Of a stretch of DNA of 64,000 nucleotides, positions 19,390-20,426 are shown piece by piece. The notes under the pieces were generated by a model. That model worked only from the letters and a program-made list of their open reading frames with translations. It was not told the DNA's origin and did no database searches. Position 1 is the first letter of the stretch; each line of letters begins with the position of its first letter. The stretch comes from Brachybacterium massiliense (GTDB lineage Bacteria; Actinomycetota; Actinomycetes; Actinomycetales; Dermabacteraceae), in the NCBI RefSeq assembly GCF_900184245.1, contig NZ_FXXB01000005.1, forward strand, positions 124,001-188,000, in the 5' to 3' direction. The translations under genes and the position numbers were made by a program.

Positions 19390-20426
19390 ATGTCTGTGCC
19401 CCGCCGTGTCCCTACTCATCGTGCCGATGGCTCCGCCGTGTACTTCCGCAACGTGCGCGTGGCTCCGAGGATCGCCGCCGCCACCGGTGGTGCGGTGATC
19501 GCCGCCGGAGCGAGCGTGGCAGGCGGCGGCGTCGCCACCGCCGATGACAGCGTGTGGGACAAGGTTGCCCACTGCGAGTCCACCGGCAACTGGTCGATCA
19601 ACACCGGCAACGGCTACTACGGCGGTCTGCAGTTCTCGCCCTCGACCTGGAAGGCCTTCGGCGGGCACGAGTACGCGAGCAACGCCCACCAGGCCACCAA
19701 GTCCGAGCAGATCGCCGTCGCCCAGCGCACCCTGCACCAGCAGGGCCCCGGCGCCTGGCCCACCTGCGGCAAGCGCGCGGGCCTGACCAAGACCAACGGC
19801 GGTGCTGATCCGAACGCGCAACCCGGCGATCGCGGCGGCTCCGCCTCCCGTGATGCCGAGCGCACCTCCCCCGGCGCCCTCGTGGTGGACGGCAAGTTCG
19901 GCCCGGCGACCACTCGCGCCCTCGAGGCCTGGGTGGGCGTGAGCCAGGACGGCTCTCTGTCCACCTCGGACATCAAGGCGCTGCAGACCAAGGTGGGTGC
20001 CGTCCCGGACGGGAAGATCGGCGCCGAGACCACCCGCAAGCTGCGCGCCGCGATCGGCCTGAGCAGCAACGGCGTGTGGGACTTCCGCAGCAACTACTCC
20101 ACCGTCAAGGCGCTCCAGCAGCATCTCAACAGCGGCTGTCTCTTCTACACCTCTGACGCTGCCGCACCCTCGTGGTGGACGGCAAGTTCGGACCCGCTAC
20201 CACCCGCGCGCTCCAGGCCTGGGTGGGCGTGAGCCAGGACGGCTCTCTTTCCACCTCGGACATCAAGGCGCTGCAGACCAAGGTGGGTGCCGTCCCGGAC
20301 GGGAAGATCGGCGCCGAGACCACCCGCAAGCTCCGCGCCGCGATGGGCCATGGCAACAACGGGGTGTGGGACTTCCGCACCAGCTACTCCACCGTCAAGG
20401 CGCTCCAGCAGTTCCTCAACGGCTGA
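19390..20426 (+). CDS. Rpf-like transglycosylase with peptidoglycan-binding modules, interrupted by adapter-like sequence
   Basis: The start ATG follows AGGAG. An atypical export signal ([28 protein letters not shown]) precedes an Rpf/transglycosylase-like domain. This domain has the catalytic Glu in AHCESTGNW and the landmarks [11 protein letters not shown] and [15 protein letters not shown] linker leads to a peptidoglycan-binding module ([15 protein letters not shown] to VKALQQHLN, 19882-20130) and a second, nearly identical one (20169-20423). Between them the frame breaks in a 29-nt stretch at 20136-20164 that matches sequencing-adapter sequence. The real number of modules is therefore uncertain. 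The enzyme would cleave cell-wall glycan strands and support growth or resuscitation. Confidence 0.8.
19882..20423 (+). repeat. Tandem near-identical peptidoglycan-binding module, two copies
   Basis: Copy 1 spans about 19882-20130 and copy 2 about 20169-20423. They share long identical runs at DNA level, for example the stretch coding for [20 protein letters not shown]. The copies are in different frames because of the sequence between them. Confidence 0.85.
20136..20164 (+). other. Nextera transposase-adapter-like sequence (probable assembly artefact)
   Basis: The 29 nt match the reverse complement of the Nextera read-1 transposase adapter (mosaic end followed by GACGCTGCCG) at 27 positions, with two A-to-C differences at 20145 and 20151. 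It lies exactly between two copies of a repeated domain and breaks the frame. This is not expected in a natural gene. Confidence 0.85.

Follow-up and report, generated by a model that had tools for sequence, protein, structure and literature searches.

An error-bearing Nextera-type adapter sequence between the two peptidoglycan-binding modules of an Rpf-like gene of Brachybacterium massiliense

Adapter sequence left in deposited microbial assemblies, of isolates as well as MAGs, has been reported to reduce assembly accuracy (Moeller et al., 2024; PMC11536531). The count in that paper, as far as its main text goes, is one of exact matches to a 12-base TruSeq-type universal adapter, concentrated at contig ends, and the word “Nextera” was not found in that main text. 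The remnants described below, from the assembly of Brachybacterium massiliense (G000), differ from the cases presented there in that they are Nextera-type, in that none is exact, and in that the site studied here lies inside a contig; contamination at contig ends is already in print, and internal Nextera remnants that carry base errors represent one variant of this fault. Literature searches returned nothing closer than that study and no paper devoted to such internal remnants, which is weak evidence of absence, and a search with the peptide form of the adapter returned no paper.

The gene that carries the sequence has in common with the resuscitation-promoting factors Rpf and RpfC the transglycosylase-like domain PF06737 (124.3 bits, E-value 3e-36, above the gathering score of 27). 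It differs from them by two C-terminal peptidoglycan-binding modules (PF01471, 25.6 bits for module 1 and 29.9 bits for module 2, with a cut-off of 23) and by the scores of the frame as assembled against the NCBIfam equivalogs Rpf (94.3 vs a cut-off of 180) and RpfC (102 vs 200), and since these fall below the cut-offs we refer to the gene as Rpf-like.

The window, i.e. the whole 64,000-nucleotide stretch of DNA that we analysed, corresponds to C4:124001-188000, and the adapter site is located 144 kb from the start of this 290-kb contig. For all comparisons we used as reference the letters of the Nextera adapter. Positions 20136-20164 of the window agree with the reverse-complemented Nextera/Tn5 read-1 adapter in 27 of 29 bases, the two differences being A-to-C changes in the mosaic end at adapter positions 10 and 16. 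The match comprises the mosaic end and the first 10 of the 14 bases of the read-1 tail and then ends (adapter bases 30 to 33 do not match), and no index-like 8-mer is found at this site. It is the sole place in the 64-kb window with at most 3 mismatches to the 19-mer mosaic end, and a separate scan allowing at most 5 mismatches again returned this place alone. Using a base-composition model, about 2e-10 matches to the 29-mer with up to 2 mismatches are expected by chance in 64 kb, and one of 100 dinucleotide shuffles of the window contained a single match to the 19-mer with at most 3 mismatches.

Table 1. Features of the Rpf-like gene and of the adapter sequence within it (positions in the window).
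Feature	Position	Strand	Basis or remark
Rpf-like gene as assembled, 280 aa, reads through the adapter	19390..20232	+	ATG at 19390, stop at 20232
Transglycosylase-like (Rpf) domain PF06737, residues 51-126	19540..19767	+	profile match
Peptidoglycan-binding module 1, 84 aa	19879..20130	+	PF01471 match and comparison
Linker between the modules in the assembly, 38 nt (29 from the adapter)	20131..20168	+	compared with 17-25 codons in 11 orthologues
Nextera/Tn5 mosaic end, in the orientation of a read-through at a read's 3' end, 17/19 bases	20136..20154	+	two A-to-C changes
Read-1 adapter tail, bases 1-10	20155..20164	+	10/10 identical
Peptidoglycan-binding module 2 including its stop codon, in a different frame from the upstream part	20169..20426	+	frames, profile match

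The two modules (19879-20130 and 20169-20420) are identical at 76 of 84 amino acids. Between the Leu-Asn codons that close module 1 and the first codon of module 2 there are 38 nt, of which 9 are not adapter; this spacing puts module 2 in another frame, and the reading frame that opens with the ATG at 19390 ends at the stop codon at 20232. A first-pass annotation, made from the sequence alone, had described the 27 matching positions and the two A-to-C differences, which we recovered identically, and had stated that the adapter breaks the frame of the gene, a break that is present in the sequence as given. It had also placed the adapter exactly at the beginning of module 2; the adapter does lie between the modules, but within the linker, and ends 4 nt before module 2.

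To see how often this sequence occurs in the same assembly, we searched the 8 contigs of G000 (3.87 Mb) for the 19-nt mosaic end with at most 3 mismatches, yielding 10 places, none exact, nine with 2 mismatches and one with 3; the reversed pattern, used as a control, gave 0 matches. Tails were read at nine of the ten places (the window site and L001 to L008). The read-1 tail is whole (14/14) at L001, L004, L007 and L008 and partial at L002 (12/14), L005 and the window site (10/14 each) and L006 (7/14), and L003 carries a whole read-2 tail (15/15). The tenth place (C3:1427737), which has 3 mismatches, is without adapter tail and may be a chance match. At four places the read-1 tail is followed by one shared 8-mer (0, 0, 1 and 2 mismatches over tail and 8-mer), and at one place the read-2 tail is followed by another 8-mer, which is the pattern expected of one indexed library. 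We take the read-1 8-mer to be Nextera i5 S507 and the read-2 8-mer to be Nextera i7 N710 (in adapter direction), and the sequence of L001 beyond its 8-mer is presumably the start of the P5 side. Across the nine sites with 2 mismatches, 15 of the 18 mismatches are to C, including 10 from A to C; this bias looks like base-calling error in read ends combined with the survival of what trimming had missed. L004 (G000:C3:1302439-1302479) shows the same two A-to-C errors as the window site, then a complete read-1 tail and an 8-mer that differs from the shared one at two bases, and at L003 (G000:C3:1287789, locus position 1501) the read-2 remnant has an N soon after the 8-mer.

We consider that the 29 nt are almost certainly a sequencing-library remnant assembled into the gene, and not DNA of the organism; the apparent frameshift is then an artefact. 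Two observations temper this reading: the joint in the window is without the index kept by four other sites, and two of the recurrent places, at C4 positions 23 and 47194, cap the two mirrored ends of a single palindrome and are perhaps not independent of each other. A natural resemblance to the adapter by chance, in the form of a programmed frameshift or a linker variant, would accommodate the two mismatches and the location in a variable linker, but it has to be set against the very low number of matches expected in the window and the ten near-matches in G000 vs none for the reversed pattern. The recurrence together with the sites sharing tail and 8-mer makes it very unlikely, and we give it next to no credence.

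The mosaic end is a synthetic hybrid that corresponds to neither natural IS50 end. The first 19 nt are nevertheless a Tn5-type end, so that a real end of Tn5/IS50 or of a laboratory Tn5 derivative, inserted in the living genome and truncating the enzyme, was also considered. One end only is found within the window, where no paired inverted ends were found, and the flanking 9-mers differ when compared by eye, i.e. there is no 9-bp target duplication. Moreover, the tail belongs to the Illumina read-1 adapter, the remnant at L001 continues through the 8-mer (and then presumably into the P5 side), and the leftover linker is much shorter than those of the orthologues. The probability of such an insertion is in our view vanishingly small.

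For comparison with related genomes, we used 19 orthologous loci from the genus. A motif search identified two modules in 11 of them and one in L010 and L013, where BLAST added a second in-frame module, so that 13 of 19 loci carry both modules in a single frame; a lone module is found at 5, and the remaining locus (L028) has a different arrangement. G003, G005, G006 and G008 are outside this set (matches weak, probably paralogous, or none), as are the Rpf-like loci of G039 and G050. No adapter is present in any of the 13 aligned orthologous linkers, which further argues against a natural linker variant, and among the mosaic-end matches listed in a genus-wide scan (at most 3 mismatches) none falls on any of the 19 loci. 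The comparison with orthologous genes proposed in the first-pass annotation thus upholds the adapter reading, and its view of the adapter as an assembly artefact gains from the recurrence in G000 with shared index-like sequence as well as from the 13 orthologous linkers. In the 11 two-module orthologues measured, the linker is 17-25 codons long and rich in Ala, Pro, Ser and Gly, and the linker of the window is shorter than all of them. Given this difference in length, the adapter most likely replaced native linker; the loss of native linker would amount to at least about 42 nt if it was as long as in the relatives.

The first-pass annotation had further warned that the domain count and the neighbourhood should not be trusted here. 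A corresponding explanation would combine an artefactual adapter with a false second module, module 1 having been joined to a duplicate or another locus, with wrong domain count and neighbourhood. The identity of the modules invites such mis-joins, a single module is found at 5 of the 19 orthologous loci, and the same contig holds a large, probably false structure capped by adapters. However, three relatives align with the window in single blocks that begin at or near the gene start and continue across the site and module 2 and into the genes downstream (2328 columns in G023, 2303 in G002 and 2269 in G019), which makes the domain count and the local gene order credible. In addition, module 2 differs from module 1 at several bases, which argues against simply the same reads having been used twice, and the remaining matches of the query in G000 fall on contig C2, with identities of 40-51%. 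We therefore regard a false second module as highly improbable, and the two repeated domains flanking the adapter look real in these alignments. As two in-frame modules are the commonest arrangement and three relatives are collinear, the warning is not borne out at this site, although the module count does vary between loci, which speaks in its favour.

We also compared the C-terminal 27 amino acids of the modules with those of the 11 two-module orthologues. The summed identities of window module 1 with their modules 1 and 2 were 237 and 234, and those of window module 2 were 216 and 232, the modules being too alike to assign. The high identity of the two modules and the varying number of modules in the genus (L010-L028) suggest homogenisation and gain or loss of modules in these bacteria.

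The artefact could have arisen as follows. A tagmentation (Nextera-type) fragment would have ended in the inter-module linker and been shorter than the read, which then ran into the adapter, and trimming probably missed the adapter owing to two erroneous bases in its mosaic end. The assembler would have bridged via the adapter tail to the similar second module, and most of the native linker would have been dropped in the bridging, a loss in this strain. A repeat-driven joint of this kind is plausible given how similar the modules are. In the living cell the gene is most likely intact and in a single frame, and would comprise, in this order, the N-terminal region, the Rpf-type transglycosylase domain, module 1, an Ala/Pro/Ser-rich linker and module 2.

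Mosaic-end matches with at most 3 mismatches were detected in 5 of 38 genomes of the genus, G000 included, and the reversed pattern once in the 38 genomes. The remaining 33 genomes had no match, which points to a fault of particular assemblies. Outside G000, mosaic-end near-matches (L153-L161) are in G008, G013, G039 and G050. The 4-contig assembly G008 has 8 matches, all with 2-3 mismatches, at positions 125,340-2,126,381 of its contig 1; three of them were read, of which one has a whole read-1 tail, one a partial tail and one none. G013 has 9 matches, one of them exact; at least 7 are no farther than about 112 nt from the end of a contig. G039 has 2 and G050 has 1. In G000 and G008 combined, all 18 near-matches have 2 or 3 mismatches; as 1 of 10 in G000 and 1 of the 3 read in G008 are tail-less, not all 18 are established as adapter.

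Contigs of other species were then scanned for the 29-mer, allowing A or C at each of its two variable positions; the search, which may omit entries from G000 itself, yielded at least 119 loci and at least 126 matches. These are Nextera read-1 remnants with the same adapter as in the window, but among the 126 matches listed 124 are A-A, 2 are A-C and none is C-C like the window, and 120 have at most 70 nt from the adapter to the end of the sequence stretch examined; they thus differ from the window in being mostly A-A and near stretch ends.

On the same contig, C4:2-47233 (L166-L168) is a 47,232-bp near-perfect palindrome with no spacer, which is outside the window and does not reach it. Aligned to its own reverse complement it has two mismatched pairs, both within the end adapters, and it is capped at both ends by adapter and index-like 8-mer (L007 and L008, the mirror caps at C4 positions 23 and 47194). 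Its centre is located inside xylA, encoding xylose isomerase (positions 44-182 of 382 of the TIGR02631 profile in the piece tested). Using the xylA region of G002 as a query, one part was found at the C4 centre, in both arms, and the adjoining part at C3:1751810-1753882, the very end of C3. A search of six genomes with the 2 kb beside the centre returned two full copies in G000 and one main region in each of five relatives, undivided or split in two (with about 3 kb between the parts in G004), plus short matches. Given the single region in the relatives and the adjoining sequence at the end of C3, the palindrome is most likely a false fold-back, and the true start of C4 is probably near its centre. 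At the inner cap (C4:47194-47234; L008, L168), five relatives match leftward up to the adapter, and rightward of C4:47194 they give short matches only, of up to about 50 nt, so that this place represents either a false join or a strain-specific right side. The suspicion about structure voiced in the first-pass annotation is thus borne out elsewhere on the contig.

We see roughly an even chance that contiguous assemblies of G+C-rich genomes contain an overlooked class of internal scars, made up of adapter remnants with at least 2 base errors, which would escape exact-match screens, mark lost native bases or false contig joins, and thereby give rise to false frameshifts and, in one instance here, a 47-kb false palindrome. 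For the locus studied here, the frameshift can be set aside as false, and with it the truncated Rpf-like protein. G000 needs an adapter screen tolerating 2-3 mismatches before pseudogenes, linkers or large repeats are claimed from it, a small practical warning for collections of species-reference genomes.

Flanking direct repeats were considered as a general cause of the joints and rejected: among 8 loci (the window site not counted), a long repeat is present at L005 only (21 nt), and the other seven have 6-10 nt. At L005 (G000:C3:1581659, locus position 1501), the best BLAST block with L169-L171 starts in the right-hand repeat copy, and the 21-nt repeat may have been made by the joint itself. 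Each of the 5 relatives compared is collinear with this locus over one alignment. For L001, collinearity extends over two blocks in both G023 and G002, and in G004, G022 and G019 the best place covers its right part only, with weaker matches to the left part elsewhere.

Finally, a blastn search of the site against phage sequences returned 73 records, of which the best 8 have E-values of 0.002 to 3. Six of these eight best records (H3-H8, e.g. KY883634.1:131939-131971; H6 and H7 are one phage) show weak adapter-like matches within about 200 nt of the record end, with E-values of 0.002 to 0.8, and possibly reflect the same contamination.
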